From the IMG/VR virus record IMGVR_UViG_3300045996_003055, positions 1 through 20,409 of that record: a stretch of 20,409 bases of DNA; one strand, written 5' to 3'. A program made the position numbers and the translations under genes. The notes beneath the pieces were generated by a model that was not told where the DNA came from, searched no databases, and saw nothing but the letters and a program-made list of their open reading frames with translations. This stretch comes from a virus. Position 1 is the first letter of the stretch, and each line of letters starts with the position of its first letter. Shown here in pieces: positions 59 to 18,895 of this stretch.

Positions 59-643
59 ATGGCCGATGACGGAATGCTGTCCATTCGCGCCTACGCGAAG
101 CACCGCGGCTGCAGCGATGGCGCGGTGCGCAAGGCCATAGAGAAAGGGAAGATACACGCGACGGGCTCGGGGAAGGAGACGCGCATCGACCCCGTCGCCG
201 CCGACGCCGAATGGGCGGCGAACACGCGTACCCCGGTGCGTACCAAGGCAGAAGGTGCGCACGATGGTGCGCACCTGCGCACCGAGGCCGAGGGATCGCG
301 CTACAAGTACGCACGCGAGCTCGACAACGCGGCCGCCAGCGACGAGTCCAAGGCGGACGCGGAGCGCCGGAAGGAAGTCGCGCTCGCGAACATCCGGGAG
401 CACGAATACCGGATCAAGAGCGGCACCAGCGTTGACCGCCAGGCAGTGACGGACGCGTGGTTTGCAGTCGCGCGCAACGCGCGGGATCAGCTGATGGGCG
501 TGGTGGACCGGCTCGCGCTGCGGCTCTACCTCACGCCGGAGCAGACCGAGATCGTGACGGAGGAGATGCGCGGCGTCCTCGTCCAGCTGGCGAAGGAGAC
601 GCCCGGTCTTGGCGACCCGCTCCCCGAACCCGTAGAGATGTGA
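59..643 (+). CDS. Terminase small subunit (Nu1-like)
   Basis: This 194-residue protein is probably the DNA-recognition subunit of the packaging motor, which binds the phage packaging site and hands DNA to the large subunit. The N-terminus (about residues 7-48) reads like a winged helix-turn-helix of the Nu1/excisionase type, with LSIRAYAKHRGCSDGAVRKA followed by a wing-like segment rich in K, G and T. A charged helical middle (about 75-140) and a helical C-terminus (about 145-190, DAWFAVARNARDQLMGVVDR) follow, as in oligomerising small terminases. The ATG lies 8 nt after an AAAGGTAGG ribosome binding site (42-50). The stop overlaps the GTG start of the large terminase as GTGA. Position directly before a GpA-type terminase strongly supports the call. 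The exact family is inferred from pattern and context. Confidence 0.8.
   Translation: MADDGMLSIRAYAKHRGCSDGAVRKAIEKGKIHATGSGKETRIDPVAADAEWAANTRTPVRTKAEGAHDGAHLRTEAEGSRYKYARELDNAAASDESKADAERRKEVALANIREHEYRIKSGTSVDRQAVTDAWFAVARNARDQLMGVVDRLALRLYLTPEQTEIVTEEMRGVLVQLAKETPGLGDPLPEPVEM
255..282 (+). repeat. Short palindromic repeats GTGCGCAC inside the small terminase gene
   Basis: The 8-bp palindrome GTGCGCAC occurs at 255-262 and 267-274, a 12-bp period, and a 7-bp partial copy TGCGCAC follows at 276-282. The segment encodes a short linker with the local repeat RTKAEG / RTEAEG just after the DNA-binding domain. The repeats are visible directly. A role as a packaging-initiation site is only a possibility. 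Confidence 0.5.
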
Positions 644-2676
644 TCGCCTTCGCCGCGCCCCAGGAGACGGACGTCTCCGACCTGCTGCAGGCGGCGGGGT
701 TCGGCTTCGAGCCGGACCCCGATCTGCGCTGTGACGAGTGGGCGGAGCAGCGGCGATACCTCACCCGGGACGACAGCAAGGTCACCGGGCTCTACAAGTT
801 CGACCCGATCCCGTGGGCGCGTGACATTGCCCGCGCCCTCTCCCCGCAGGTCCGGATCCGGCGCGTGGTCTGGCGGTCCTCCAGCCAGACCGCGAAGACG
901 GCCATGGGGCTGAACTTCATCGGCTGCGCGGTGGACATTTCGCCGGGTCCTATCCTCATCGTCCAGCCGACACAGAGCACGGCGAAGACGTTCAGCACGC
1001 AGCGGCTGCGGCCGATGATCCGCGCCAGCCCCACGCTCCGGGAGAAGGTCAAGGACGGGAAGGGGCGGGACGGCGGGAACAGCACGTTCGAGAAGCAGTT
1101 CGCCGGCGGCGCGATCTTCATCGCATGGGCGGGCTCGGCTGACGAGCTTGCGTCCAAGCCCATCCGCTACATCATGGCGGACGAAGTATCGAAGTGGCGG
1201 CGCAACCTGGACAACCAGGGTGATGCACTCGCCCAGGCCGTACAGCGCACGCAGAACTACGGCCCGGACGCGAAGGTCTTCATCCCCTCCACGCCCACGG
1301 AGGAGGGCAGCTGCACCGTCACCGAAGAGTACGAGGCCGGGGATCAGCGAAAGATCGAGGTTCCCTGCCCCCACTGCGACGGGTTTCAGCAGTTGGAGTG
1401 GGAGCAAATCCATTGGGAAAAGAAGGAGGTGAACGGCCGCAAAGTTCACCTGACGGACACGGCGGCCTACTTCTGCAAGCTGTGCGGCAGCGAGTGGACG
1501 GACGCGGAGCGCCTGGCCGCGATCCAGCGCTACCGGTGGGTCGCCCACCGCTGGGGCGGGATCGACGGGAACGTGCGCGTACTCACGCCCGAGGACGCCT
1601 GTATCGCCCCGGGCGGCGTAGCGAGTTTCGATTCCTGGTGCCTCTACACCCCGTGGGAGAACCCCGTCTCCCTGGCCGCGGAGTTCGTGAAGTGCATCGG
1701 GCACCCGGACAAAATGCGGGCCTTCGTGAACCTGAAGCTCGGCCGGCCGTACAAGCCCGCCGCGATCGAGTTCGACGCCCGGGACCTGATGGGCCGCCGG
1801 CGGGCGTTCGCGGCGGAGGTGCCCGAATTCGTCGCGCTGCTGACGGCGAGCGTGGACGTCCAGGGCGACCGCCTGGAGGTGTTGCTGATGGGGTGGGGCG
1901 CGGGGGAGGAGTCCGCCGTCATCTTGCACACCCGCATCCATGGCGACCCCGAGCAGGCGGAGGTGTGGCAGCGGCTTGAGTCGATCATCACCAAGCGATA
2001 CACGCACGAGCTCGGCGGCACGATCCGCGTCCGCATGGTCTGCTGCGACGGCAGACACAAGCCCGAGGCAGTCGCGAAGTTTGTCCGCCCGCGGGAGCAC
2101 AGGCCCTCCGCTACGGTGTCCGCCATCCATGGCCACGACAACCGCGCAAAGGAGCTGATCCACCGCCCGGAGAAGCCCAACAAGTTCGGGATCAAGCCGG
2201 TCACTCTGGCGACGCACCAGCTGAAAGACACGATGCTGCCGCGGCTCCTGAAGTCCGAACCGGGCCCCGGATACATCCATTTCGCCGCACAGGACAGCCG
2301 CATCGAGGGCATGGACGCTAACTTTTTTGAGCAGTTCAGCCATGAAAAACGGGTGAAGGAGCGCAACACGAAGGGGCGGTACGAGTGGCGGTGGAAGGCG
2401 ATCCACGAGCGCACGGAGGCCATCGACCTCATGTGCTACGCCTACGCCGCGCTCCTGCTGCTGGGCCCTGCTGTGTATGAGAACCTGGAGCGCTGGCACC
2501 GCCGCCTCGCCCGGCGCGCGGCGACGTCGGTTGCTGCCGAGGACGCCGTCCCGGCCCCTGTCGCGGAGCCCGTTGCGGATCAGCCCGCAGCGGGGAAGAA
2601 GCGGGCGGCGCGTGCGAAGCCGGCGAAGCCGGGCCCTGGCCGGTCCGGCAGCTGGGCGACGAGGGGCATTCGCTGA
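640..2676 (+). CDS. Terminase large subunit (GpA family ATPase/nuclease)
   Basis: This is the ATP-driven motor and nuclease that packages DNA into proheads. The GTG at 640 overlaps the upstream stop as GTGA and gives 678 residues, close to lambda gpA. Upstream in-frame codons lie inside the small-subunit gene. The ATPase domain shows a degenerate Walker A (SSQTAKT, about residues 81-87), a conserved segment ILIVQPTQSTAKTFS (105-119) and a Walker B, YIMADEVSKW (177-186). A zinc-ribbon pair follows: CPHC (243-246) and CKLC (279-282). The nuclease domain carries acidic residues D406 (SVDVQGD), D470 (VCCDGRHK) and D596 (RTEAIDLMCYAYAALLLLG), the last in a typical GpA ending. A basic Ala/Pro/Lys tail (about 635-678) may contact the portal or prohead. 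Family assignment is firm; the catalytic residues are inferred from position. Confidence 0.95.
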   Translation: MIAFAAPQETDVSDLLQAAGFGFEPDPDLRCDEWAEQRRYLTRDDSKVTGLYKFDPIPWARDIARALSPQVRIRRVVWRSSSQTAKTAMGLNFIGCAVDISPGPILIVQPTQSTAKTFSTQRLRPMIRASPTLREKVKDGKGRDGGNSTFEKQFAGGAIFIAWAGSADELASKPIRYIMADEVSKWRRNLDNQGDALAQAVQRTQNYGPDAKVFIPSTPTEEGSCTVTEEYEAGDQRKIEVPCPHCDGFQQLEWEQIHWEKKEVNGRKVHLTDTAAYFCKLCGSEWTDAERLAAIQRYRWVAHRWGGIDGNVRVLTPEDACIAPGGVASFDSWCLYTPWENPVSLAAEFVKCIGHPDKMRAFVNLKLGRPYKPAAIEFDARDLMGRRRAFAAEVPEFVALLTASVDVQGDRLEVLLMGWGAGEESAVILHTRIHGDPEQAEVWQRLESIITKRYTHELGGTIRVRMVCCDGRHKPEAVAKFVRPREHRPSATVSAIHGHDNRAKELIHRPEKPNKFGIKPVTLATHQLKDTMLPRLLKSEPGPGYIHFAAQDSRIEGMDANFFEQFSHEKRVKERNTKGRYEWRWKAIHERTEAIDLMCYAYAALLLLGPAVYENLERWHRRLARRAATSVAAEDAVPAPVAEPVADQPAAGKKRAARAKPAKPGPGRSGSWATRGIR

Positions 2677-2683
2677 CCCGTCG

Positions 2684-2744
2684 CGCCAACTTGCACACTC
2701 ACTTGTGCAAGTTTCGCCAACTTGCACGAGCACGTGTGCAAGTT
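2684..2744. repeat. Two tandem 30-nt dyad-symmetric repeats, 31-bp period
   Basis: Unit 1 (2684-2713) and unit 2 (2715-2744) both begin CGCCAACTTGCAC and end GTGCAAGTT, with one base between them. The 7-8 bases in the centre differ. Each unit is itself an inverted repeat: arms 2688-2697 and 2704-2713 (10 bp) in unit 1, arms 2719-2727 and 2736-2744 (9 bp) in unit 2. A 31-bp period is about three helical turns and places both dyads on the same DNA face, as expected for paired operators bound by dimers. Conserved arms with diverged centres point to protein binding. Confidence 0.8.
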
Positions 2745-2758
2745 ACTGCACGCATTCC

Positions 2759-2772
2759 TTTCCCCGGGGAAA
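2759..2772. repeat. 14-bp perfect palindrome TTTCCCCGGGGAAA
   Basis: This is a perfect palindrome within the control island. A close relative, TTTCCCAGGGGAA, lies at 10733-10745 just before the tape-measure gene, and both are followed by a CGG. It could be a binding site shared by two late-gene control points. With only two copies seen, chance in GC-rich DNA is not excluded. Confidence 0.4.
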
Positions 2773-2782
2773 CGGCGCGCGG

Positions 2783-2807
2783 CTCACTGGCGAAAAACGC
2801 CAGTGAG
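2783..2807. repeat. Perfect 10-bp hairpin with A5 loop
   Basis: Arm CTCACTGGCG (2783-2792) and its exact complement CGCCAGTGAG (2798-2807) flank a loop of five A residues. No T-run follows, so it is not a standard intrinsic terminator in the plus direction. It could be an RNA element, such as an antitermination (boxB-like) hairpin, or a protein site. This is inference. Confidence 0.5.
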
Positions 2808-2838
2808 AAATTCAGCGCGCAGAGGGGGATCAAGGGTC

Positions 2839-2866
2839 TTGTGTGAGGCGCGTCCATAGATAATAT
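2839..2866 (+). promoter_or_regulatory. Possible sigma-70-type promoter
   Basis: TTGTGT (2839-2844) and TAATAT (2861-2866) are separated by 16 bp, in one of the few AT-rich patches of the window. Transcription would begin around 2873 and meet the terminator at 2891-2931 almost at once. The match is weak at the -35 box, so this is only a candidate. Confidence 0.3.
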
Positions 2867-2890
2867 TTGATCCCGACCATGTGAGGCCAA

Positions 2891-2931
2891 GCCTCCGAAC
2901 CCGCCATCCCCGGCGGGCTCGGAGGCTTTTT
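2891..2931 (+). terminator. Rho-independent terminator
   Basis: A 15-bp stem pairs 2891-2905 (GCCTCCGAACCCGCC) with 2912-2926 (GGCGGGCTCGGAGGC) with a single A-C mismatch. The loop is 6 nt (2906-2911) and five T residues follow (2927-2931). It ends transcription after the terminase genes, or acts as an attenuator before the head genes. Its location within a collinear late gene run is unusual. Confidence 0.8.
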
Positions 2932-2969
2932 GCGTTTGCGGCCTGCGCCCCCCCTCGCCCCGGGCCCCG

Positions 2970-3209
2970 ATGTCACACACCGCCGCCGTCTCCACCCTGA
3001 AGGAGCGCGCCGCGTTCCTGCGCCAGGACGCCGCTACCCTGATGGACAGCGCTGCTTCGGCGAGCACCCGCGCCGCGCGGTGCACCGAGGAGGCCCAGCG
3101 GCACCTGGCGGACGCCGCCGCGCTCGATGCCGCCGTGCTGGAGCTGGAGCGGACGCAGGCCACGACCGGCTCCGCGAACACCGTCCGCGCCAGCTTCACG
3201 CTGTCGTGA
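2970..3209 (+). CDS. Small Ala-rich helical phage protein, unknown function
   Basis: This 79-residue protein is about one third alanine. Its charged heptad-like pattern (LKERAAFLRQDAATLMDSAA, then ALDAAVLELERTQ) suggests one long helix or coiled coil. Codons have the strong G/C third-position bias of neighbouring genes, and the stop overlaps the next gene's GTG as GTGA, so it is likely real. No clear ribosome binding site precedes the ATG; the upstream sequence is C-rich. It sits where lambda has gpW but lacks gpW features, which appear in the next gene. It may be a small head or assembly factor. No family is recognised. Confidence 0.6.
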   Translation: MSHTAAVSTLKERAAFLRQDAATLMDSAASASTRAARCTEEAQRHLADAAALDAAVLELERTQATTGSANTVRASFTLS

Positions 3210-3751
3210 GCCTCGATCGGGAGCCCACCCGCCTCGCCGCCGGCGACACGTGGACGTGGAGCCGTACGCTGCCGGACTACCCGGCCGCGGACGGCTGGCT
3301 GCTGCGGTACTACGCGCGGCCCTCCGTCGGCACTGGCCTGGAGACGGAGGCGGCTGAGGTGACGGTGGACGGCGATACCTGGACCGTGTCGGTCCCCAGC
3401 TCCCGCACCGGCGTCCTGACGGCGGGCACGTTCCGCCTCGCGGGCTACGTCTCCCGCGGGACCGATCGCCACGAGGTCTACGCCGGCGTGCTGCGCGTTA
3501 CGCCCAACTTCGCATCCGGCGACGCCACGGCCGCCCTGAGCACGGATGAGCAGCTGCTCGACGTGCTGTCCGCCGCTGTGGCCGGGCGCCTCTCCAGCGA
3601 CATCGCGGAGACTTACACCATCGACGGTGTGGCCGTAGCGAAGATCCCTGCGCGCGATCTGGCGCGGATGCTGGCGGAGGTACGCTCGCGTTTGCGCCGG
3701 CGCCGCACGGGGAAGCTGACGCAGACCGTGAAGGTGCGCTATGGCAGGTAG
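3206..3751 (+). CDS. Head-tail connector protein with N-terminal beta domain and gpW-like C-terminus
   Basis: The chosen start is GTG 3206, overlapping the upstream stop (GTGA), giving 181 residues. The frame is open further upstream, but that part lies inside the preceding gene. Residues 1-100 look like a beta-sandwich (AAGDTWTWSRTLPDYPAADG, then DGDTWTVSVPSSRTG, then GTFRLAGYVSR). Residues 117-167 resemble gpW-type connectors: two helices around a short hairpin (SDIAETYTIDGVAVAKIPARDLARMLAEV). Its place before the portal fits a protein that closes the filled head or joins head to tail. The C-terminus overlaps the portal start by 11 nt. The gpW relationship is by pattern only; the N-terminal domain is not recognised. 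Confidence 0.55.
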   Translation: MSLDREPTRLAAGDTWTWSRTLPDYPAADGWLLRYYARPSVGTGLETEAAEVTVDGDTWTVSVPSSRTGVLTAGTFRLAGYVSRGTDRHEVYAGVLRVTPNFASGDATAALSTDEQLLDVLSAAVAGRLSSDIAETYTIDGVAVAKIPARDLARMLAEVRSRLRRRRTGKLTQTVKVRYGR

Positions 3752-5336
3752 GCTCCTGAGCCTGGCAGGCGCGCGGCGCGCCATGGCGGCGGACATCGCT
3801 GCCGCGCCGACCCCCCCGCGAAGGCCGCGCCGGGCGCCGCGCGGGGCCCGCAGCGCATACGCCGGCGCTCGCATGGGGGACGGCATCGTGGAGTGGGCAT
3901 TCTCCGCGATCCAGTCGGCAGACCAGGAGCTGCGCGGGGACCTCACGGCCCTGCGTGGAAACTCGCGGAATCACTGCCGCAACGACCCGTACGGGCGCCG
4001 CTTCGTGAACGAGGTGGCGCTCAACACCGTAGGCCCTGGCGGAATCCGCATGCAGTCCCAGGTCCGTACCGGCGACGACGCCGCAGACCTGGCCTGGAAC
4101 GCTGAGGTGGAAGCCGCATGGCTCGGCTGGGCGGAGGACAAGGTCACGGCGGACGGCCGCATGGACTGGTGGCAGCTGCTGACGCACGTGGCCACCACGG
4201 AGCCGCAGGACGGAGAGATCCTGATCCGCATGCTCCCCGGCTTCGCGGACAACCCCTACGGCTTCGCCCTGCAGGTCATCGACCCGGATCAGCTGGACCA
4301 CACGCTGAACCGGCCGGCCGCCTTCAACAGCGCCGGGCAGCGAATCCAGAACGCCATCCGCATGGGCGTGGAGGTGAACGAGTGGGGGAAGCCGGTGGCG
4401 TACTGGATTCACCCGACCCACCCCACGGACCGCCAGCAGTACGGCGTGCAGCGTTTCGACCCGGTGCGGGTGCCCGCGCACCTGATGATCCATGACTACC
4501 TCTCCGTGCGCGTGGGACAGACGCGCGGCGTGCCCTGGCTGGCCCCCGTGCTGCGCCGCGGGCGGCTGCGCGATTCGTTCGAGGAGGCGGCCGTCGTCAA
4601 CGCCAGAATCGGCGCGTCCAAAATCGGGCTGCTCCAGGAGGAGCCCAGCGCGGTCCTGGACCCGAACGACGACGAGGACGAGGAGGAGGCGGGGGGCGGC
4701 GCGCCGCCGTTCAGCATGGACCCGGAGCCGGGCACGTGGGAGATCCTGCCGGTCGGCGTGAAGCCCGTAGAGAACGGGTGGAATCCGCTCTATCCCAACG
4801 GGGAATACGAGCCTTTCGTCCGCGCCTCGCTCGGTGCCGAGGCGGCCGGGATGCTCATCTCCTACATGACGCTCACGGGGGACCTGAAGCAGACGTCCTT
4901 CAGCTCCGGGCGCATCGGTCTGCTGAGCGAGCGCGATATGTGGCGCGTCGCTCACCGCCGGAAAATCGCGAACATCTGCCGACCGGTGATGCGGGCGTGG
5001 GCGCCATGGGCGCGCACGTCGGGGATGCTGAGGGTGCCCGAGGCGGTGTTCCCCGCCGACCGGCCGCCGGTGCGCTGGCAGGGGCGCGGGTGGCAGTGGG
5101 TCGATCCCAAAAACGACGTCACCGCGCAGTCGGCCGCGGTGGACAACATCATGGGCAGCCGCACGCTGTCCCTGGGGGAGCAGGGGATCGACTTCGAGGA
5201 CGTTGCCCAGGACATCGCCCGTGAGGAGGCGATCATGGAGCGGCTGAAGATCAAGCCGCGATCACCCGCGGCCGCGCAGCAGCCCGCACCGGCGGACGCC
5301 GGTGCGACGAACCCTGACGCCGAGGAAGACGAATGA
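3741..5336 (+). CDS. Portal protein (lambda gpB family)
   Basis: This 531-residue protein forms the dodecameric ring at the capsid vertex through which DNA enters and leaves. After a basic Pro/Arg-rich N-terminus (about 1-45), the conserved lambda-portal segment appears: a region of helical spacing, then LRGDLTALRGNSRNHCRNDP and VALNTVGPGGIRMQSQV (about 58-110). Later come GEILIRMLPG, a PDQLDH segment, and the TSFSSGRIGLLSERDMWR-type region near residue 395, typical of this family. The C-terminus is acidic and Ala/Pro-rich. Length matches gpB (533). The ATG at 3741 overlaps the preceding gene; ATG 3783 is an alternative that would lose 14 residues. The last bases overlap the next ATG (ATGA). 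Confidence 0.93.
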   Translation: MAGRLLSLAGARRAMAADIAAAPTPPRRPRRAPRGARSAYAGARMGDGIVEWAFSAIQSADQELRGDLTALRGNSRNHCRNDPYGRRFVNEVALNTVGPGGIRMQSQVRTGDDAADLAWNAEVEAAWLGWAEDKVTADGRMDWWQLLTHVATTEPQDGEILIRMLPGFADNPYGFALQVIDPDQLDHTLNRPAAFNSAGQRIQNAIRMGVEVNEWGKPVAYWIHPTHPTDRQQYGVQRFDPVRVPAHLMIHDYLSVRVGQTRGVPWLAPVLRRGRLRDSFEEAAVVNARIGASKIGLLQEEPSAVLDPNDDEDEEEAGGGAPPFSMDPEPGTWEILPVGVKPVENGWNPLYPNGEYEPFVRASLGAEAAGMLISYMTLTGDLKQTSFSSGRIGLLSERDMWRVAHRRKIANICRPVMRAWAPWARTSGMLRVPEAVFPADRPPVRWQGRGWQWVDPKNDVTAQSAAVDNIMGSRTLSLGEQGIDFEDVAQDIAREEAIMERLKIKPRSPAAAQQPAPADAGATNPDAEEDE

Positions 5337-7345
5337 GCACGGCCGCACCCGCGGCGCCGCCGTCCGAGGCCGGCGCCGACATCCCCAAGGACGACGAGCA
5401 GAACCGCACGCGCTACCGCGTTGCCGGCTTTCTCCGCGCCGAGGGCGCGGAGCGGGAGCCGTGGGAGGACGACCCGGAAGCGGCGATCCCGCTGGCGATC
5501 AGTTCCGAGGCGCCCGTCCTCCGCTACGACTGGCGCGACGGCTACTACTACGAGGTGCTGGATCACTCCCCCGGCTGCATCGACCTGTCGTATGCGGCGG
5601 ACGGCCTGCCCTTCTGCGTGGAGCACAACACGCGGGATCAGGTGGGGATCGTGGAGGGGGTGCGCCTGGACGGCGACCGGAAGACCCGCGGCGAGATGCG
5701 GAGCAGCGAAAGCGTGCGCGGGAAGGAAATCCGCAGCGACATCGTCCGCAGGATCCGGAAGAAGATCAGCTTTGGGTACGACGTGGACGACACCAACTAC
5801 GTCGTCACGAAGGCGGACGGGGACCTGTACCCCACCCGCACCTACAAGCGGTGGATGCCCCTGGAGGTGTCCACCGTCGCCATCCCCGCGGACTACTCGG
5901 TAGGCGTGGGGCGCAGCGCGGAGCAGCGCGAGGGCGCGGCCCGCAACAACACCAGCACGGCCCGACACGCGGCCGAGGAGAACACCGTGAGCGGAACCGC
6001 TACGGCCCCGGCCCCCGGGGCAACGGCCAACGTGGACCCCCACGCCGAGCGCACCGCCGGGCTGATCCGCCTGGCGCGCGACCACGGCGCGCACGCCGAG
6101 CTGGCCGGCTGGCTGGAGGGGGGCAAGACCGTGGAGCAGGCGCAGGGCGAGCTCCTTGCCCGCGCGCGCGCCGGCAACACGCCCATCGACACGACCGGTG
6201 CCGGCTCGCCCACGGGGGTGGCGGACGTCCAGCTGTCGGAGCGCGAGCAGCGGCAGTACAGCATCGTGCGCGGCATGCAGCGGATGCTGGCCGGCAAGCG
6301 CGACGGGTTCGAGTTCGAGGTGTCGGAGGAGTGCAGCAAGCAACTGGGCCGCGACACGCAGGGGTTCTTCGTCCCGATGTCGCTGCGCGCCGCGCACCCC
6401 GACGCGCTGAAGGACACGCCTGGCGCGCGCCGCGCGCTCGGCATGCCGGACGCCCCCGGCCAGACGCGGACGATGTCCGTCGGCGGGGCCACGCTGGGCG
6501 CGGAGTCCGTGTTCACCGAGTACGGCGGGCTGATCGACGTGCTCCGCAACCGCTCCGCGGTGCTGAAGCTGGGCGCGCAGATGCTGCCCGGCCTGCAGGG
6601 GGACGTCGGCTTCGTCACCCTCACCGCCGGCACCGTCGGGTGGACGGCGGAGGCGACCAACATCGCCGTCGCGGACGTGAACACCGGCCTCCGGAAGATG
6701 GGCCCCAAGCCGCTCCAGGGCGCCCGCGCGTACACGCGCCAGCTGCTGCTGCAGTCCGTGTTCAGCGTGGAGAACATGGTGCGCACGGACCTCGCCCTGG
6801 GCCACGCGCTGGAGATCGACCGTGCCGCCATCAACGGCAGCGGCACGGGCAACGAGCCGCGCGGCATCCGCAACACGGTGGGGATCGGCAACGTCTCCAT
6901 CGGCACCAACGGCGGCGCCCCCACCTACGAGCACCTCGTGGACCTGGAGGCGGAGATCACCACGGACAACGCCGACATCGGCGCCATGGGAATCCTGACC
7001 AACGCCCGGATGCGCGCCAAGCTGCGCAAGACGCAGGAGTTCAGCGGCACCAACGGGCGCGCCATCTGGACGGGCGGCGTGGACGGCGAGTGCGCCGGCT
7101 ACCCCGCCATGGCCTCCAACCAGGTGCCCGGCAACCTGACCAAGGGCACGTCCACGGACTGCCACGCCATCATCCAGGCGGTCTGGAGCGAGCTCCTGAT
7201 CGGCGAGTGGGGCGCCCTGGAGGTCATTCTCGACCAGACCTCGCTGGGGCCGTCCGTCGTCAAGGTGATGTCCATCGAGTTCGTGGACATCTTCCTCCGC
7301 CAGATCGCGGCGTTCGCCGCCATCCAGGACGCCCGCAACGTCTGA
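5333..7345 (+). CDS. Prohead protease fused to HK97-fold major capsid protein
   Basis: One frame of 670 residues joins two roles that are usually separate genes. Residues about 25-195 match the HK97 prohead protease (U35/S78) pattern: candidate catalytic H98 in LPFCVEHNTRDQVGIVEG, S146 in KKISFGYDV, and the C-terminal signature WMPLEVSTVAIPADYSVGVGR (174-194). Residues about 200-390 are a charged Ala-rich helical region like a scaffolding/delta domain. From about 395 the HK97 capsid fold follows: TEYGGLIDVLRNRSAVLKLG, GTVGWTAEATNI, an E-loop/spine helix region, DRAAINGSGTGNEPRGI, and the C-terminal strand LRQIAAFAAIQDARNV. An in-frame GTG at 5987 with a good ribosome binding site could yield the capsid alone. 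ATG 5333 overlaps the portal stop. Confidence 0.88.
   Translation: MSTAAPAAPPSEAGADIPKDDEQNRTRYRVAGFLRAEGAEREPWEDDPEAAIPLAISSEAPVLRYDWRDGYYYEVLDHSPGCIDLSYAADGLPFCVEHNTRDQVGIVEGVRLDGDRKTRGEMRSSESVRGKEIRSDIVRRIRKKISFGYDVDDTNYVVTKADGDLYPTRTYKRWMPLEVSTVAIPADYSVGVGRSAEQREGAARNNTSTARHAAEENTVSGTATAPAPGATANVDPHAERTAGLIRLARDHGAHAELAGWLEGGKTVEQAQGELLARARAGNTPIDTTGAGSPTGVADVQLSEREQRQYSIVRGMQRMLAGKRDGFEFEVSEECSKQLGRDTQGFFVPMSLRAAHPDALKDTPGARRALGMPDAPGQTRTMSVGGATLGAESVFTEYGGLIDVLRNRSAVLKLGAQMLPGLQGDVGFVTLTAGTVGWTAEATNIAVADVNTGLRKMGPKPLQGARAYTRQLLLQSVFSVENMVRTDLALGHALEIDRAAINGSGTGNEPRGIRNTVGIGNVSIGTNGGAPTYEHLVDLEAEITTDNADIGAMGILTNARMRAKLRKTQEFSGTNGRAIWTGGVDGECAGYPAMASNQVPGNLTKGTSTDCHAIIQAVWSELLIGEWGALEVILDQTSLGPSVVKVMSIEFVDIFLRQIAAFAAIQDARNV
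5975..5989 (+). promoter_or_regulatory. Internal ribosome binding site and GTG start for a capsid-only product
   Basis: GAGGAG (5975-5980) lies 6 nt before an in-frame GTG (5987-5989) at codon 219 of the protease-capsid fusion, just after the protease domain ends. Initiation here would give a 452-residue protein of scaffold-like segment plus capsid domain. The spacing is ideal, but GAGGAG also encodes Glu-Glu, so it could be coincidental. Confidence 0.45.
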
Positions 7346-7743
7346 TGACGTTCCCGCCGCGCCCCGGGTGGTGGCAGGCGCCGCCCGGGGCGACGGCAGA
7401 GGACTACCCCAGCGCGGCGGCGTTCGCCAACGCCGTCGCCACCCAACGCAAAAACGAACAGGAGAGTCCCATGGCCGGCATCGAGGCAATCGAGCTCACC
7501 CGCGGCACCGTTGGCCCCGAGGGGCCGGTGGATGCGGGGGCCTTCTTCATCGTCCCGGGCGAGATGGCTGCCGATGACGCGCAGCTGCTCATCCGCCTGC
7601 AGAAGGCGAAGCAGGTCAGCGCCGCCGACGCCAAGGCGGGCCGCAAGGCCGCGGCCGAGGCCGCCGCCGCCGCCGAGGAGGACGAGTCCGCCGCGCCCGC
7701 GCCGTCGCGCACCGGGAGCCGCGAGCCGCAGCGGACTCGCTGA
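7345..7743 (+). CDS. Small head protein, gpFI-like (start uncertain)
   Basis: Opening at ATG 7345, which shares one base with the capsid stop (TGATG), gives 132 residues. A second in-frame ATG at 7471 with a much stronger ribosome binding site gives 90 residues. The 126 bp between keep strong G/C third-position bias (encoding a Pro/Trp/Ala-rich segment starting MTFPPRPGWWQAPPG), so the longer form looks translated. After codon 43 the sequence IEAIELTRGTVGPEGPVDAGAFFIVPGEMAADDAQLLIRLQKA resembles the C-terminal fold of lambda gpFI, a DNA-packaging accessory protein, and gpFI follows the capsid gene in lambda. The end is Ala/Glu-rich and probably disordered. Function is inferred from place and pattern. 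Confidence 0.65.
   Translation: MTFPPRPGWWQAPPGATAEDYPSAAAFANAVATQRKNEQESPMAGIEAIELTRGTVGPEGPVDAGAFFIVPGEMAADDAQLLIRLQKAKQVSAADAKAGRKAAAEAAAAAEEDESAAPAPSRTGSREPQRTR
7460..7473 (+). promoter_or_regulatory. Strong internal ribosome binding site (AGGAG) at ATG 7471
   Basis: AGGAG at 7460-7464 is 6 nt before ATG 7471, inside the frame that opens at 7345. It is one of the best-placed ribosome binding sites in the window and probably drives a 90-residue form. It leaves the true start, or the existence of two products, undecided. Confidence 0.55.
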
Positions 7744-8042
7744 TGACCATCCCCGCCGACAATCTCGACCTGCTGCTGCGCGAGGCCGGCGGTGGAAAGC
7801 AGGCTGTCTTCGGCACCGCCGAGGGCTACTGCATCATGCGCACGGCGCGCCTGGAGGCGAATGACGGCCACGGCCGCATCCACACGTCGTCGCACGTGCT
7901 GACCGTGGACGGCGCCCGCTTCGCCAGCCTGAAGGTGAACGACACCGGCACGGCCGGCGGGATCCCGGTGAAGTTCATCGGCCACGACGACGACGCGGAG
8001 CGCGACGCGCGCCTCGCGCGCCTGGTGGTGAGGGCGATCTGA
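7743..8042 (+). CDS. Head-tail joining protein candidate (gpFII-like)
   Basis: This 99-residue protein is rich in beta-strand patterns (KQAVFGTAEGYCIMRTARLEA, then SSHVLTVDGARFASLKVND, then GGIPVKFIGHD) and ends with a basic strand or helix. Size, predicted small beta-barrel and position after the capsid and gpFI-like genes match lambda gpFII-type joining proteins, which sit below the portal and form the surface to which the tail attaches. It shares one base with the genes on each side (TGATG), so translation is probably coupled. No diagnostic motif exists for this family, so the call rests on context. Confidence 0.5.
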   Translation: MTIPADNLDLLLREAGGGKQAVFGTAEGYCIMRTARLEANDGHGRIHTSSHVLTVDGARFASLKVNDTGTAGGIPVKFIGHDDDAERDARLARLVVRAI

Positions 8043-8548
8043 TGGTGCCCGGCACCCGAACCTCGCCGCTCGTGGACCTCGTCGTGGCCGCGCTGCAGGC
8101 GGCGTCGTACGACGTCCCCGACGGCGTCGGCGGGACCGTGACCGTCGCGCGGCCCGTGGGGCTCACGGTCCAGGATCAATCGGTAGACGGCGCAGACGAG
8201 TCGCTGTGCCCTGTCATCGGCGTGTACCCCTGGCGTGAGGACGCGCAGCACATGGCGGCCAGTGGTGGCGTCATGGATCGCGTGCTCCAGGTCGGCTTTG
8301 ACCTGGCCGTGCGGGAGGGGGGGGATTCCCCGCACCGCGCGCTGGACCCGCTCCGCGGCTGGGTCATCGTCGCGACGCACCACAACCCCGCCCTGCAGGC
8401 CGCGCTGAAGGAGTTTCCGACGGAGTCCTACACCGTGTGGCCCGCGCCGAACCAGGAGCCGCGCACGCGCGGGCCCGTTCACCTTTGCGTCACGGTGCTC
8501 CGGCTGGTGCACCGCACCCTGTACGCGAACCCCGGCATAAAGAGGTAA
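8042..8548 (+). CDS. Tail terminator candidate (gpU-like)
   Basis: This 168-residue protein has the layout of tail terminators: an N-terminal helix (SPLVDLVVAALQAASY), alternating strands including ESLCPVIGVYPWREDAQ and RVLQVGFDLAVRE, a second helix (RALDPLRGWVIVATHHNPALQAAL), and a final strand for summary of external values (PVHLCVTVLRLVHRTLYANPG). Such proteins form a hexameric ring that stops tail-tube growth and docks to the head. The location between head-joining and tail-tube genes agrees. The ATG shares one base with the upstream stop. No lambda Z-like gene is seen before it. A tract of eight G at 8317-8324 lies within the frame. Confidence 0.6.
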   Translation: MVPGTRTSPLVDLVVAALQAASYDVPDGVGGTVTVARPVGLTVQDQSVDGADESLCPVIGVYPWREDAQHMAASGGVMDRVLQVGFDLAVREGGDSPHRALDPLRGWVIVATHHNPALQAALKEFPTESYTVWPAPNQEPRTRGPVHLCVTVLRLVHRTLYANPGIKR

Positions 8549-8553
8549 GCCCG

Positions 8554-8955
8554 ATGAGCAACGAGCACCTGTCCTCCGAAACCATCCAGATCGGCGGCCG
8601 CGAGTACCAGGTGCCGCGCGCCGTCACCTCCGCCGGGGGCGCGGCGGCGGAGGCATGGCTTGCCGCCCAGCTGCTGGACGGCGCCCCGCGGGAGAGCCTG
8701 GCCAGGATGAGCCGCGCGGAGCTGGAGGAGGAGGCCGTGCGCCTGGGCCTCGCGGCCGAAGCCCCACAGGGCGTGGAGGTGGACGACGCCCTGCGCGCCC
8801 TGCTGGTGCTCCCCGCGGAGCCCGGCGCGCAGCTGGTGAAGGAGGACTACGTGCGGTGCATCGAGGCCCGCCGGGCCAACCTGGCCGCGCTCGCGTACAT
8901 CGAACCCGCCGCGCAGGAAGGCGGCTCCACTACCGACCCGGAAGGTGAGGGATGA
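8554..8955 (+). CDS. Unknown phage protein between tail terminator and tail tube genes
   Basis: ATG 8554 follows an AGAGG ribosome binding site (8541-8545) and gives 133 residues. The frame is open further upstream, but that part overlaps the tail terminator gene. The first residues (SETIQIGGREYQVPRAV) form a short beta-hairpin-like motif. The rest is largely helical and acidic, with AAEAWLAAQLLDG, SRAELEEEAVRLGL and VKEDYVRCIEARRANLAALAYIEP. Its stop overlaps the tail-tube start (ATGA). Lambda has no gene here. It may be a tail-assembly factor or a tube-binding chaperone, but no family is recognised. Confidence 0.6.
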   Translation: MSNEHLSSETIQIGGREYQVPRAVTSAGGAAAEAWLAAQLLDGAPRESLARMSRAELEEEAVRLGLAAEAPQGVEVDDALRALLVLPAEPGAQLVKEDYVRCIEARRANLAALAYIEPAAQEGGSTTDPEGEG

Positions 8956-9944
8956 GCGCTCCGAAGCTGATCGACGTCATCGGGCTTCTGCTGAACGTAG
9001 AGAGCACGTACGGCACCGCCGGCGCCGCGCTCACCGTAGGGACGCATGGCGTGCTCCTGCAGGACGAGGCGGAGGCGGAGATCACGTACATCAACGACGG
9101 CGCCCGGGACACGAACACCGGGCTCGGCGGGCCCACCCGCGGCGTCCGCCCGTCCGGCCGCCAGGTGTCCATCCCCTTCAAGGTGGAGGCGCGCGGCGCG
9201 GGCGCCGCGTACAGCGCGAGCGTGAAGCCGCCCGACGCCCACAACCTGTTCCTGATGTCGGGCCACACGGCCACGCTGGACACCACGGCGGGCGCGCAGA
9301 AGTACACCTACAAGCCGGCGACGAACGCCCTGGGCGCCAACTACACGTCCTGCTACGGAGAGCTCTACGCGCGGGCGCAGAAGTACACCTTCACCGGCGC
9401 ATACGCCGACTTCGGCTACTCGTTCGAGGCGGGCGGGATCCTGGTGCTGGAGTTCCCGACGGTGGGGCTCGTCTCGCTCCCGGTGGACGGCACCCTGGGC
9501 GTCATCCCCTGGACCGGGGCGGACCCGCCCAAGGCGGAGAACAGCGCGTGGGCCATCGGCTCGTGGACGTCGGCGGTCATCCGCAAGGCCAGCTTCAAGG
9601 CCGGACGGACGCAGTCGCCGCGCACGGACGCCGGCGGCAGCAGCGGTGCCCACCGCGGGTTCAGCCAGGGGGGCAAGCGGACGTCGCTCCTGGAGCTGAC
9701 GGTGGAGGCGGTCCCGCTCGCCACGTTCGACCCGTACACGGCCCGGGACAACGCCACCTCGCTCAACGTGACCGGCACGTTCGGCAGCACGCTCTACAGC
9801 CGTGTCGCCCCGCGGCACCCGCAGGCGCAGATCATCGAAGTGAAGGAGGACAAGGACGGGAACACTGCCCTCTGGAACCTCACGCTCAAATGCGCCAAGT
9901 CGGCGCCCCACGCGGACGATGACTATGAGATCGCGTACACGTGA
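8952..9944 (+). CDS. Major tail tube protein
   Basis: This 330-residue protein probably polymerises as stacked hexamers into the tail tube. It is beta-rich with few charged helices, with alternating strand patterns such as RQVSIPFKVEARG, ADFGYSFEAGGILVLEFPTV and RTSLLELTVEAVPLATF, and an early GTHGVLLQDEAEAEITY segment. The N-terminal motif GLLLNVESTYGTAGA (a start with 'E-x-TYGT') is common in tail tube and related phage proteins. Its place between the tail terminator and tail chaperone genes fits. It is longer than lambda gpV (246), leaving room for an added surface domain. ATG 8952 overlaps the preceding stop. Confidence 0.75.
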   Translation: MSAPKLIDVIGLLLNVESTYGTAGAALTVGTHGVLLQDEAEAEITYINDGARDTNTGLGGPTRGVRPSGRQVSIPFKVEARGAGAAYSASVKPPDAHNLFLMSGHTATLDTTAGAQKYTYKPATNALGANYTSCYGELYARAQKYTFTGAYADFGYSFEAGGILVLEFPTVGLVSLPVDGTLGVIPWTGADPPKAENSAWAIGSWTSAVIRKASFKAGRTQSPRTDAGGSSGAHRGFSQGGKRTSLLELTVEAVPLATFDPYTARDNATSLNVTGTFGSTLYSRVAPRHPQAQIIEVKEDKDGNTALWNLTLKCAKSAPHADDDYEIAYT

Positions 9945-10347
9945 GCCGCGGCCGGCGGCGTGCTTCAACGCGGACGACAACGAGATTACGCGTGCGCTCG
10001 ACGCGCTGGAGCGGCCCACGTTCCAGCGCGGAGGGCAGTTCTTTACGGGCGTCATCCTTTCGCTGGAGGAGTTCCGCCCGTTCGAGCCGCTGTTCTTCAA
10101 GCTGGACGAACAGTCGCTGGATGAGGAGCAGGTTCGGACGCTCATCTACGAGTACACGCGCGCGGTCTTCCCCGACCCGCGGCCCTGGTGGCGGAGGATC
10201 TGGAAGAAGGCGCCGGCAACGCTGGTGTCGGAGATGTCGCTCCCCCTCCAGATCCTGGCGGTAAAGCGTTTTTTGGCATGTCAGACCTCAGCGATCCCGG
10301 TGTGGCTGGGGCAGAGCGAGCCGACGGTGCAGACCCCGAGCTCGTAA
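9919..10347 (+). CDS. Tail assembly chaperone, short form (gpG-like)
   Basis: This 142-residue protein precedes the tape-measure gene and is probably the chaperone that holds the tape measure soluble during tail assembly. It is mainly helical with aromatic and acidic segments (LSLEEFRPFEPLFFKLDEQ, RTLIYEYTRAVFPDPRPWWR, ATLVSEMSLPLQILAVKRFL). A T-TTT-TTG slippery heptamer at 10269-10275 lies in the correct phase 24 codons before its end, so some ribosomes should shift to the next frame. The start overlaps the tail-tube gene by 26 nt; ATG 9919 and ATG 9925 are both possible. Family is inferred from context and the frameshift layout. Confidence 0.7.
   Translation: MTMRSRTREPRPAACFNADDNEITRALDALERPTFQRGGQFFTGVILSLEEFRPFEPLFFKLDEQSLDEEQVRTLIYEYTRAVFPDPRPWWRRIWKKAPATLVSEMSLPLQILAVKRFLACQTSAIPVWLGQSEPTVQTPSS
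10269..10275 (+). promoter_or_regulatory. Probable -1 programmed ribosomal frameshift site T-TTT-TTG
   Basis: In the chaperone frame, codons TTT (10270-10272) and TTG (10273-10275) are preceded by T10269, so both tRNAs can re-pair one base back on TTT TTT. Reading then continues GGC ATG TCA in the frame that stays open to 10721. A 7-bp stem with one G-U pair could form downstream (10286-10292 with 10305-10311, 12-nt loop), 10 nt from the heptamer. The product would be about 267 residues. Confidence 0.75.
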
Positions 10348-10721
10348 ACACCGCACGCGGCCGCAGGGCCCTTCAAGGAAAGCCGGAACCCGGCGAGCCG
10401 AAGCAGGAGGAGGGCGAGGGCTGGCGCACGCTGGAGCATCGCATTTTCCGCTTCGTGGATCGGTGGGGATGGGGAGCCTACCAGAACCCGGTGTGGGCGA
10501 AGTACACCCGGGACGGAGTGATCCCCTACCGCGTGTTCGTCCGGGCGGAGCGGTACTTGGACAGCGCCATCGCACACGACCGGCTGGAGCGCACGATCAG
10601 CACCGCCCTGGGATACACGCTCGCGAAGGTCGGGTTTGAGAAAAGCCCCGCACTGCGCTCGCAAGTGGCGAAGCTCACTGCGCTTGCTCACCCCGTCATC
10701 CGCGGGAAGCGCCCGGACTGA
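10278..10721 (+). CDS. Tail assembly chaperone extension (T domain, expressed by frameshift)
   Basis: This frame lies -1 relative to the short chaperone and overlaps its end. It is probably made as the C-terminal part of a G-T type fusion: 119 residues from 9919 to 10275, then 148 residues. Its own ATG at 10278 has only a weak, distant purine run before it, which argues against independent initiation. The frame is open back to at least 10188. The visible domain starts with an acidic Gly/Pro/Glu linker and continues with a compact helical part (WRTLEHRIFRFVDRWGWGAY, PYRVFVRAERYLDSAIAHD, RTISTALGYTLAKVGF). In lambda the T part recruits tail-tube protein to the tape measure; the same role is inferred here. 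Confidence 0.7.
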   Translation: MSDLSDPGVAGAERADGADPELVNTARGRRALQGKPEPGEPKQEEGEGWRTLEHRIFRFVDRWGWGAYQNPVWAKYTRDGVIPYRVFVRAERYLDSAIAHDRLERTISTALGYTLAKVGFEKSPALRSQVAKLTALAHPVIRGKRPD

Positions 10722-10732
10722 CCCTTACGCTC

Positions 10733-10745
10733 TTTCCCAGGGGAA
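10733..10745. repeat. Near-palindrome TTTCCCAGGGGAA before the tape-measure gene
   Basis: This imperfect dyad sits in the 38-bp gap between the chaperone and tape-measure genes and closely resembles the 14-bp palindrome at 2759-2772. It also overlaps the approach to a GGAGG ribosome binding site (10747-10751), so an RNA-level effect is possible. Shared function with the earlier site is speculative. Confidence 0.35.
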
Positions 10746-10759
10746 CGGAGGAACCGCCG

Positions 10760-13387
10760 ATGGGCGCCGTCAGACGCGTCGTTGAACTGCTGATCCAGGG
10801 CAAAGACCTGTCGGGCCGGGCGACCGCCACCGCGGCGGCCGGCCTGCAGCGCCTGAAGACGGTCGCCAAGAACGTCTTCTCCAACATCCGGGCTGCATCC
10901 AACAACGCCCTGCGCGGCTTTCAGGAGCGCGCGGGGCATCGGCTGTTCGACGGCGCCTTGAGCGCCGTGAGCGGCTTCGTTCGCGGTGCGCTGTGGGCAT
11001 CCGCCGAGGTGCAGGAGGGGAACCAGAAGCTCCAGCACTCGGTTGGGGCGATCGGCCTGGAGTACGAGAAGGTTGCTGGCCAAGTCGAAGCGGCCGCAGC
11101 CCGCGCGATGGAGACGAGTTTCTTTGATGACGACGAGGCGAAAGCGGGCATCGCCGCCGTCATCGAGCAGACGAACAATTACAAGTTTGCCATTCAGGAG
11201 GTCGGGCTTGTAGCGGACATCGCCACCAAGCGCGGAATCAGCATGGCCGAGGCCGGCGAGATCGTCGGCAAGGCGTACAACGGGAACACCAAGGCCCTGA
11301 AGTCCCTGGGCATCTACACCCGTGATGCCAGCAAGGCGGTTGAGGAGCTGCACCGGAAGTTCGATGGCGCGGCCCGCGGAGGGCTCGACACGGCCGCCGG
11401 CCAGGCGCGCGCCGCGCAGCGTGACCTGGGGGAGCTGCAGGAGGAGATCAGCGGAGTCCTCGCGCCCACCCTGCTGCGCCTCACGCAGATCCTGCGGCTG
11501 CTCACCCGCTGGATCAGCGAGAACCGCGTTGCAATCCAGCAGTGGATCGCCTGGATCGTGGGCATGATGGTCGTGTTGCAGATCACGTCCGGCGTCATGG
11601 GCTTGGTGGGCGCCGCTCGCACGCTGGCGACGACGCTGGGCGTGAGCCTCGCCCGCGTGGTGTTGCTCGGCGGGCCGCTGCTGATCGGGCTCACGGCGCT
11701 GTCCGCCATCTTCGTCAAGAACAGGATAGACGCGCTGAACGCCGCCGCCGCGGCCGACCGCTACCGAAACTCCCTCCTTGCGATGTCGCGCGCGGAGCTC
11801 GTCGCGGAGCAGTCGCGCATCGCTCGCGAGCGCAGCGAGCAGGAGGCGGAGCGGGCGCGGCTGCAGAGCGAGGGGGAATACAGCCGCCGCGCCCGCAAAA
11901 CCCACATCACGTCCGCCGGCGCAACCCCAGCGCAAGCGATGGAGAACGCCCGCGCGGACGCAGGGGTGCCGGTCATCACCCCTGCGGGCCAGCGTGTGAA
12001 CACGGCTATCTCGGCGCTGGAGGCCAGGGCGACCGCGGTGCAGGATGCCATCAACGAGCTGGAGAAGCGGGAGAGTGAGATCGGCCCCATCGGCGGCATC
12101 ACGCCCCCGGAGACGCCCTCAAAGGACCGCGGCCGCGAGAAGTCGGGCAGCGAGGCCGCCGTCACCAAGCCGAAGCTGGACGCGCTGGGGCAGGAGATTC
12201 CGGAGAAGCTGGCTGCCGACGTGGAGCGACAGATCGCGCTCCTGGAGCGGGCGAACGAGCTGCAGCAGGCGACGCCCGCCATGGTAGATGCGGCCCGCCA
12301 GCGCGTGGAGCAGCTGAACCAGGCGCTTTCTCAGGGGGTGCAGTCGGAGGAGCACCGACAGGAAGTGATGGGGCGGATCGCCCGCCTGCAGGACGCAGCG
12401 CGCGTAAGTGATGAGGCGGAGATCACCTCCCTGGAGGAAGCCGCGGGCCGGCGAGCGCTGAACGCAGCGGAGATGGCGCGGATCGTGGACCTGACGGCGG
12501 ACCTCAATGTCCTTCAGGGCGAGGCCGTGGGCGACGAGCGCGAGCAGGGCCGGCTGATGGAGATGCAGCGTCGGCTGACGGCGCTGGCCGTGGGCGAGCA
12601 GGAGCGGGAGAAGTCCTTTCTCATTGCCGCTCGTGAGCTGCGCCGGCTCACGCCCGACGAGCGCGGCCGGCTCGTGCTTCTCCGGCAGCAACTGGAAGCG
12701 CAGATCCAGGCCAATCTTGGCACGGCTGAGGAGCTGCGCCTCCGCCGGGAGTTGGCTGAGCTGGATCCGGACAGCGGTGGCCTCACCTCCGGGGAGCGGA
12801 ACACCGGCCCGGGCTGGCTGCGTGACGCCGGCCTGACGTCGTCCGGCATCGCCGACGGGATGCGCGAGGCGCTTGGCGCCGTGCAGTCGCTGGACAAGGC
12901 GGTAGGCGGGAGCCTCGTCCGGTCGTTCAACCGGCTTGGCGAGGCCGCCGGGCTGGCGGTGGGCGCGCTGCTGGAGGGCAATCTCTCTTGGCGCTCTTTC
13001 GCGGACCTGGGCAAGGCCGCGGTCGCCGACCTGGCGGACACCTACGCGCAGTTCTTCTTCGCGAAGTCTGCGTCTGAGGTGGCCGCCGGGCTGGGGCTGG
13101 GCGGGTCGCCCAAAAACTTCGCCTCCGCGGCCAAGTGGTTCCTTGCCGGTACGGCGATGAAGGGCATTGGCGCAGCCGCCAGCGGCAGCTTCGGCGGGGG
13201 CGGCGGGGGCGGCTCCGCTTCGAGCACGGCCGACAGCGTATCCGGCCAGGCCAACCGCGGACGCTCGGAACTGCGCATCCGCGGCCGCGGCTTCCTGGAC
13301 CTGTCCGACCCGCGCGTGCAGGACGGGCTTGCCGCAGCCATCGACGGGCTGGGGGAGCGTGACCGCATTGACGTGACCTTCGAGTAG
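10760..13387 (+). CDS. Tail tape measure protein
   Basis: This 875-residue protein sets tail length and is expelled into the host membrane on infection. ATG 10760 is 8 nt after GGAGG. Features fit the family: long amphipathic helices throughout, two hydrophobic membrane-like segments (about residues 262-286, WIAWIVGMMVVLQITSGVMG, and 297-319, ARVVLLGGPLLIGLTALSAIF), then coiled-coil-rich stretches (about 320-445 and 485-690). The C-terminus has a conserved-looking helix block (WRSFADLGKAAVADLADTYAQ) and a glycine-rich patch (GGGGGGG, about 812-820). At the usual 0.15 nm per residue it predicts a tail near 130 nm. There is no visible lytic enzyme domain. It directly follows the chaperone pair, as expected. 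Confidence 0.93.
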   Translation: MGAVRRVVELLIQGKDLSGRATATAAAGLQRLKTVAKNVFSNIRAASNNALRGFQERAGHRLFDGALSAVSGFVRGALWASAEVQEGNQKLQHSVGAIGLEYEKVAGQVEAAAARAMETSFFDDDEAKAGIAAVIEQTNNYKFAIQEVGLVADIATKRGISMAEAGEIVGKAYNGNTKALKSLGIYTRDASKAVEELHRKFDGAARGGLDTAAGQARAAQRDLGELQEEISGVLAPTLLRLTQILRLLTRWISENRVAIQQWIAWIVGMMVVLQITSGVMGLVGAARTLATTLGVSLARVVLLGGPLLIGLTALSAIFVKNRIDALNAAAAADRYRNSLLAMSRAELVAEQSRIARERSEQEAERARLQSEGEYSRRARKTHITSAGATPAQAMENARADAGVPVITPAGQRVNTAISALEARATAVQDAINELEKRESEIGPIGGITPPETPSKDRGREKSGSEAAVTKPKLDALGQEIPEKLAADVERQIALLERANELQQATPAMVDAARQRVEQLNQALSQGVQSEEHRQEVMGRIARLQDAARVSDEAEITSLEEAAGRRALNAAEMARIVDLTADLNVLQGEAVGDEREQGRLMEMQRRLTALAVGEQEREKSFLIAARELRRLTPDERGRLVLLRQQLEAQIQANLGTAEELRLRRELAELDPDSGGLTSGERNTGPGWLRDAGLTSSGIADGMREALGAVQSLDKAVGGSLVRSFNRLGEAAGLAVGALLEGNLSWRSFADLGKAAVADLADTYAQFFFAKSASEVAAGLGLGGSPKNFASAAKWFLAGTAMKGIGAAASGSFGGGGGGGSASSTADSVSGQANRGRSELRIRGRGFLDLSDPRVQDGLAAAIDGLGERDRIDVTFE

Positions 13388-13401
13388 AACAGGGGGGGTG
13401 G

Positions 13402-14382
13402 ATGGCCTCGCTTACGGTCCAGCAGATCCGGTGGGGAACGGGGCTCGCGGACACGATCTACATCGCGTACCCGTCCCGCGCCGTGACGTACGGAGTCCCG
13501 GCGTCGGACTTCGACGTGCTGGAGCTGGCGTCTGGCTACCGCACGGCGTGGGGCGGCGGAGCGAGCGAGCAGCAGCGGCTGCGCGAGGACGTCCGTTACA
13601 TCCCGCCGGCGGACACCGTCGATCCGCTCGCGACGGGGTGGGACGGCGTGAAGGGGTGGCGGGCGTTCCTCGCCTGGGCGCGCCGGCAGAACACCTTCAC
13701 GCATCACCGCGACGCGAGGAACTTCTACAGGTTCGCCCCAATGTCGGTTGATTCCAACGGGGACGGCCTGGTGGACGGGCACGCGATCTTTCGCTCCATC
13801 GCGAGCACGTCGTACGCGAAGCCGGCCGGCCGGAACCAGGTGGTCACCGCCACGTTCACCGGGGCGGGCCAGGTCGCAGGGGTGGAATCCCTCTACCGCC
13901 CGCCGGCGTGGGCTGGCATGCCGACCCGGTTCTACAGCATTGATGCTCGGTTCAACCGCGCGCCAGGGGCGACCGCCGGGAGCCTGCTGTTCACCATGCG
14001 CCGCGAGTTCCTGGACGCGGCCGCGGCGTCGCTGGGGTTCGCCTACATCACGCTCGCAACCGACCCCTCGAACGACACCAACTACATCCGGTTCACCGTC
14101 TCCGACGCCACCGCGGCCCCGGCCGGCACCGTCGCAATAAGGCTTTCGCCGTGCCTGCGGTCGGCCGTCGACGCGTCGGCCACAGGCTCCACGGTGGAGA
14201 TGAAGGACATCGCCGTGCAGTACGGCGGATCGGCGTTCGAGGGATACGTAGATAGCGACCTATCCGTGCTGAGCTACCTGGACGCGCCGCTGCGCGATGC
14301 GCCGGGGCTGGAGGACGACGGCACCCGCCGCCTGACGCTGGAGCTCATCAGCGCCAGCGGGGCCAGCTACGACGGCTACTGA
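13402..14382 (+). CDS. Distal tail / minor tail protein with a calcium-loop motif
   Basis: This 326-residue protein follows the tape measure and is probably part of the tail tip. The N-terminal half carries beta patterns and a block resembling distal tail proteins: LASGYRTAWGGGASEQQRLR, then GWRAFLAWARRQNTFTHHRD. Residues 117-125 read DSNGDGLVD, a match to the DxNxDGxxD calcium-binding loop. About residues 130-285 form a beta-sandwich-like segment (NQVVTATFTGAGQVAGVE, then FYSIDARFNRAPG, then TVAIRLSPCLR), possibly an inserted carbohydrate-binding-type domain. The end (residues 285-326) returns to a strand-rich segment ending SYDGY. A G-rich ribosome binding site (13392-13398) precedes the ATG. 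Exact role is inferred. Confidence 0.6.
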   Translation: MASLTVQQIRWGTGLADTIYIAYPSRAVTYGVPASDFDVLELASGYRTAWGGGASEQQRLREDVRYIPPADTVDPLATGWDGVKGWRAFLAWARRQNTFTHHRDARNFYRFAPMSVDSNGDGLVDGHAIFRSIASTSYAKPAGRNQVVTATFTGAGQVAGVESLYRPPAWAGMPTRFYSIDARFNRAPGATAGSLLFTMRREFLDAAAASLGFAYITLATDPSNDTNYIRFTVSDATAAPAGTVAIRLSPCLRSAVDASATGSTVEMKDIAVQYGGSAFEGYVDSDLSVLSYLDAPLRDAPGLEDDGTRRLTLELISASGASYDGY

Positions 14383-14401
14383 GCGGGGGAGAGCCTGGAC
14401 C

Positions 14402-18511: not shown

Positions 18512-18517
18512 GAGTTC

Positions 18518-18895
18518 ATGCCGCGATCGCTTGTTGACCTGCTGGAGCGCCACGGCGGAGCGGGGGCCGTGATGGCTGGCGCTCACCCGCTGGGCCGCCG
18601 CCTCTTCGTCCCCGATGCACTGCCCGGGTCCCTCCCGCACTTCGCGTGTAGGTGCGGTCGGCGCGTGGCCGCCTTCATGATGCGTGACTTGGCGCCGGAT
18701 GAAGTGCCGGCCGGCCAGCGGCTGACGGCTGACGAGCGGGCCGCGTGCGGCTTCGGCTCGGATATGGTGCGTTGCGACGCGTGCTGTGAAGCGCCGGTGC
18801 TGACCGGCGCGATCACGGAGGGGCGGTTGCGCGAGGCGCGAGGCGACCCGCCGCGGCACCTCCCGGAAACGCACCGGGGGCGCGGCTCGGATTGA
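18518..18895 (+). CDS. Small Cys-rich protein, possible zinc ribbon
   Basis: This 125-residue protein ends the plus-strand gene run, 6 bp after the hub gene. It has CRC (C44, C46) in HFACRCGRRVAAF, C77, and CDACC (C86, C89, C90) in MVRCDACCEAP. Two clusters of paired cysteines about 40 residues apart would suit a zinc ribbon. The C-terminus is basic and probably disordered. The stop codon lies inside a perfect 15-bp hairpin (18874-18908), so the last codons are part of that stem. The site follows the hub gene, where phages often place tail accessory or host-interaction genes. No family is recognised; metal binding is inferred from the cysteines. Confidence 0.6.
   Translation: MPRSLVDLLERHGGAGAVMAGAHPLGRRLFVPDALPGSLPHFACRCGRRVAAFMMRDLAPDEVPAGQRLTADERAACGFGSDMVRCDACCEAPVLTGAITEGRLREARGDPPRHLPETHRGRGSD

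Follow-up and report, generated by a model that had tools for sequence, protein, structure and literature searches.

Why does a phage whose late genes are otherwise closely packed carry two nearly identical palindromes in a non-coding gap between its terminase and head genes? The palindromes occur in an uncultured phage represented by virus record IMGVR_UViG_3300045996_003055, which is probably a fragment, and the window discussed here is that whole stretch of 20,409 nt. Its genes follow the order terS (phrog_57), terL (phrog_15), a 79-aa open reading frame (ORF), head-tail joining (phrog_5774), portal (phrog_21) and a major head protein with protease (phrog_617). A preliminary description of this DNA placed the palindromes between terminase and head genes and called that location unexpected. 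The gene map confirms the placement, and the gap is the only one larger than about 40 bp in the packed late run (59-18895). GC content by codon phase is flat across the gap (0.62/0.63/0.62) and gives no coding signal, whereas third-position GC is high in the ORF that follows; the gap is thus non-coding and the 79-aa ORF is probably real. This ORF begins 37 nt past the terminator, has no match in PHROG and Pfam, and shows no clear ribosome-binding site. The features are summarized in Table 1.

Table 1. Positions of the features in and around the terL/head junction.
Feature	Position	Strand	Details
Terminase large subunit (terL), GpA type	640-2676	+	phrog_15, E 4.8e-189; PF05876, E 2.8e-75
Non-coding gap, terL to first head-region ORF	2677-2969	.	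293 bp, from ORF map
Direct repeats carrying both dyads	2684-2744	+	5' flank CGCC common to both
Dyad 1	2688-2713	.	AACTTGCACA-CTCACT-TGTGCAAGTT; arms 10 bp with centre 6 nt, or 9 and 8
Dyad 2	2719-2744	.	AACTTGCAC-GAGCACGT-GTGCAAGTT; arms 9 bp, centre 8 nt
Perfect 14-bp palindrome	2759-2772	.	TTTCCCCGGGGAAA; read from sequence
Third hairpin	2783-2807	.	CTCACTGGCG-AAAAA-CGCCAGTGAG; -18.8 kcal/mol as RNA
Promoter-like stretch	2839-2866	+	TTGTGT-16-TAATAT; GATAAT at 2859-2864
Intrinsic terminator	2889-2933	+	GC-rich stem, loop ATCCCC, then TTTTT
79-aa ORF, first gene past gap	2970-3209	+	Third-position GC 0.94
Head-tail joining gene	3206-3751		phrog_5774
Portal gene	3741-5336		phrog_21

The two units are direct repeats of 30 nt each, CGCCAACTTGCACACTCACTTGTGCAAGTT (2684-2713) and CGCCAACTTGCACGAGCACGTGTGCAAGTT (2715-2744), which are identical at 26 of 30 positions and lie 31 bp apart from start to start. 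Each contains a 26-nt palindrome, AACTTGCAC-N8-GTGCAAGTT. Identical outer arms, diverged centres and a 31-bp period had all been claimed previously, and they are present exactly as described. The mismatches between the units, at unit positions 14, 15, 16 and 20, all fall inside the central 8 nt, for which P is about 0.0026 if four differences are placed at random in 30 positions. Exact 9-bp dyad registers with loops of 3-10 number 16 in the window, whereas 100 dinucleotide shuffles gave 3.1 on average. A pair of dyads with the same arms arose once in 100 whole-window shuffles, or about 0.00014 per 293-bp gap. The arm AACTTGCAC has four exact occurrences in the 20.4-kb record, every one of them in the dyad arms, and the search for the motif elsewhere in the phage, which had been proposed as a check, returned no further copy of the dyad from this probable fragment. 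Whether read directly or inverted, the two centres agree at 4 of 8 positions (P about 0.11-0.18 for random centres). This is no closer than chance, so the two units need not be a recent duplication and may instead be independent sites that have their arms in common. The distance from dyad centre to dyad centre is 31 bp, or approximately three helical turns. The paired dyads are considered a real, non-random, lineage-specific feature of a control region, most likely one that is ordinary in kind.

Downstream of the dyads, the gap contains elements of the sort used in transcription. The promoter-like stretch begins 95 bp past the end of the dyads, is among the AT-richest 50-mers of the record and is flanked by GGGATCAA (2826-2833) and TTGATCCC (2867-2874). 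Only three places in the record, counting both strands, carry a hexamer within one mismatch of TATAAT, and one of these places is in the gap. A stricter consensus scan called no promoter, so the promoter in the gap is a putative one. The terminator hairpin, with 17-nt arms that are 94% complementary and a stability of -34.9 kcal/mol, is by far the strongest of the record's few sites with a hairpin followed by T5. Two other repeated structures were observed in the late region. A perfect 15-bp GC-rich stem lacking a T-run (18874-18908) spans the stop codon of the last forward gene, ahead of genes on the opposite strand, and a 118-nt direct repeat (17458-17713; 78% identical, 138-bp period) lies within a gene of 1369 aa, for which a search of the phage collection gave no match.

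Related phages were compared at the same junction. The closest virus found, at 49% terminase identity, carries an extra gene of 229-265 aa at exactly this place, weakly DUF4145-like but below the cut-off; no dyad is present in its 41-kb record. A set of 120 distinct terminase junctions from related phages is dominated by overlaps and by gaps of less than about 80 bp, and paired dyads occur in none of them. In PPpW-3, terL overlaps the next gene, and in S-LBS1 the gap is 15 bp. Lack of the arms in relatives that share the gene order had been named earlier as a refuting result, and the arms are indeed absent in every relative examined; this is weak counter-evidence, since even the nearest of them has a terminase identity of only 49%. 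A group of AT-rich phages has a short TATAAT-bearing stretch with the motif GGTATAAT at this junction, which indicates that control elements do occur there, with other sequences. In three members of this group (L134, L184 and L164) the TATAAT-bearing stretch lies directly 3' of terL, and a palindrome, AAACCGGTAT-N8-ATACCGGTTT, is found in the group at the start of the next gene, with AAACCGATAT-N8-ATATCGGTTT as the version in L134. Given the extra gene of the nearest relative and the TATAAT-bearing stretch of the AT-rich group, the terL/head junction is, on the sequences compared, a variable slot that is here apparently filled with a small control region.

Wider searches for the dyads were also performed. 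The single dyad has 11 matches in IMG/VR, which is about chance level, and many of these lie in coding sequence. A search of 84,980 species genomes did not return the exact paired dyad; single or diverged copies would escape this search, and the host may be missing from the set. Judged from these collections, the dyad is no widespread element of the viruses or hosts sampled. A scan for paired core arms gave three unrelated loci, one within a gene, with no clear enrichment over background. Neither the third hairpin nor the GGGATCAA/TTGATCCC pair, used as scan patterns, led to a relative of the gap. BLAST with the gap sequence gave nothing relevant among phages and plasmids, and in the papers listed by a literature search with the arm sequence, the letters matched by chance only. 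The host may be a member of the Gemmatimonadota, and the dyad is absent from the one Gemmatirosa plasmid searched. An unrelated phage, IMGVR_UViG_3300044841_000028, has about five TTGCAC-N8-GTGCAA palindromes spaced 26-36 bp apart in an apparently non-coding region (L278:165-305). This array (L278/L288) has the same core arms with an 8-nt centre and adjoins a gene for an HTH DNA-binding protein (phrog_14857), but the core arms are all that it has in common with the present dyads, and the resemblance may be due to chance, the background of tandem dyads being high. Palindrome pairs of a TCACT type, TCACTTGG-N6-CCAAGTGA with TCACTGGCG-N4-CGCCAGTGA, occur 33-36 bp apart in three phage records (sites L293:490-530, L300:11695-11760, L301:6580-6640 and L302:4105-4165), followed by an intrinsic terminator in L300 and L301; these are maybe host-type extragenic palindromes. 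These two kinds of array were the only comparable ones found, and since tandem dyads are generally frequent, they are no proof of kinship.

The explanation ranked first, tentatively and with somewhat less than even confidence, is that the gap is a promoter-terminator cassette with paired operators for a dimeric regulator; a role as RNA is ranked second and a scar third. Each palindrome would take one dimer of a DNA-binding regulator of phage or host, and the two dimers would lie on one helical face and aid each other. The bound dimers would set the amount of transcription entering the head genes, through repression or activation of a local promoter or through an influence on terminator read-through. 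The regulator would be encoded outside the sequenced part. The operator reading is favoured by the conserved arms, the free centre, the spacing of about three turns, and a non-coding site beside a promoter-like stretch and a terminator. It is also favoured by the presence of a rare TATAAT-like site and the record's strongest terminator within the same 293 bp, and by the variable contents of this junction in other phages. In the half-site test for operators, the arms are constant and all the differences central, with the P value given above. The operator reading is weakened by the distance to the promoter-like hexamers, which is further than for most operators, by the negative outcome of the stricter promoter scan, and by the lack of the arms in relatives and of a second copy in the 20.4 kb. 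Operators of phage regulators usually recur elsewhere in the genome. The missing further copies nevertheless weigh little because the record is a fragment and the relatives are distant.

Action as RNA is possible but doubtful. The 61-nt stretch of late message would fold as a single long hairpin with interruptions, or else as two hairpins, and serve in protection of the terminase message end, as an RNase III-type processing site, or in attenuation together with the downstream terminator. The gap folds very stably (z -8.2), as does the dyad stretch on the + strand (z -7.6), and the third hairpin and terminator lie downstream. However, such folding is expected of any inverted repeat, and the minus strand does better still (-36.5). 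Dyad 2 is followed by no U-run and hence is itself no terminator, and no Rfam family scored above its gathering score, the only sub-threshold matches being to the terminator on the minus strand. As a single strand the two units pair mutually into a 23-bp interrupted hairpin of -33.6 kcal/mol, compared with -25.4 for separate hairpins. Same-arm tandem palindromes therefore mis-pair as RNA, which is immaterial to a DNA-binding dimer; identical arms are a poor design for two separate RNA hairpins and are expected for two DNA-bound dimers, so paired operators are placed ahead. One long interrupted hairpin is still a possible form of the RNA, because on the + strand new cross-pairs between the units arise from three of the centre differences and a G-U pair from the fourth. 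It is less probable that the gap is a scar with no present role, consisting of the regulatory ends of a lost moron-type cargo gene or of host extragenic palindromes acquired alongside. The extra gene of the nearest relative sits exactly here, a promoter and terminator with no gene would suit a hollowed-out cassette, and the TCACT-type pairs show that palindromes 33-36 bp apart also exist in unrelated phage records. Arms that stay perfect while the centres differ imply constraint instead, the gap holds no pseudogene or coding trace, and the absence of the exact pair from the species genomes, with the single dyad near chance in IMG/VR, argues against an element common in sampled hosts.

Two further explanations treat the dyads as sites for DNA processing. 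A site for a tyrosine recombinase or replication initiator is very improbable. The arrangement of 9-bp arms around an 8-nt spacer is like lox-type cores in layout, and an AT-rich stretch is near, but the 20.4 kb shows no recognisable recombinase or replication gene and lacks a DnaA box, and the two sites enclose no cargo. The arms of lox and FRT are longer than 9 bp, and those of the dyads are thus shorter than either. The preliminary description had offered paired operators or a packaging-protein site. Paired operators stand as the best single reading, while a packaging site bound by the small terminase is unlikely, and the least probable of all the explanations. The dyads do adjoin the terminase genes, and a terminase oligomer could bind paired palindromes; they nevertheless lie downstream of terL and not beside or within terS, and cosB and pac in characterised phages are not known to lie downstream of terL. 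Better-placed candidates are the repeated GGTGCGYACC boxes just upstream of and within terS (49-58, 235-244, 254-263 and 266-275). The record begins 58 nt ahead of terS, much as those of PPpW-3 and S-LBS1 begin near it (88 nt and 0 nt), and a cos or pac region is expected there. A similar layout is seen in the nearest relative, with GGGGAACC as its own, different box (L014:2348-2361 and 2612-2645), and the terS boxes resemble packaging boxes for the small terminase whose sequence varies from relative to relative. The pattern is not general across the other relatives and is not evident in PPpW-3 or S-LBS1, so the boxes are a candidate lead only. Repeated boxes in the terS region are also listed at 123-131 and 276-284. 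The repeats of type III toxin-antitoxin systems were considered and dropped, as there are only two units, far from the terminator, and no toxin-like gene follows the terminator.

If the dyads are operators, the terminase/head junction would be under independent control in a place where nearly all relatives run their genes back to back, and it would be marked as a slot into which phages put either a cargo gene or a control element. If they are not, the gap is a regulatory one of an ordinary kind, specific to the lineage of this uncultured phage. A more specific version of the operator reading, and an improbable one, is a switch at the terminase/head boundary in which a dyad-bound regulator governs a promoter-terminator leader and separates packaging from head-protein levels. 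Those levels would then be set apart within what is usually a single late operon.

To our knowledge, the dyad arms match no described operator. Likenesses in layout come from phage operators and from lambda and lambdoid phages. The promoter-like site resembles the lambda pR'-tR' leader in standing about 20-60 nt before a strong terminator, ahead of late genes; the present pair differs in lying between terL and the head genes, with no known antiterminator. The tandem operators of phage repressors and activators, such as lambda OL/OR, likewise consist of close-set short palindromes with conserved arms and a variable centre in a non-coding control region, whereas the dyads here belong to the late genes and are separated from the nearest promoter-like site by about 95 bp. 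The moron or cargo slots of lambdoid late operons also combine a promoter-like stretch with an intrinsic terminator where a relative has an extra gene. In the present phage, the promoter-terminator pair has no gene between its two parts, and palindromes are added upstream.
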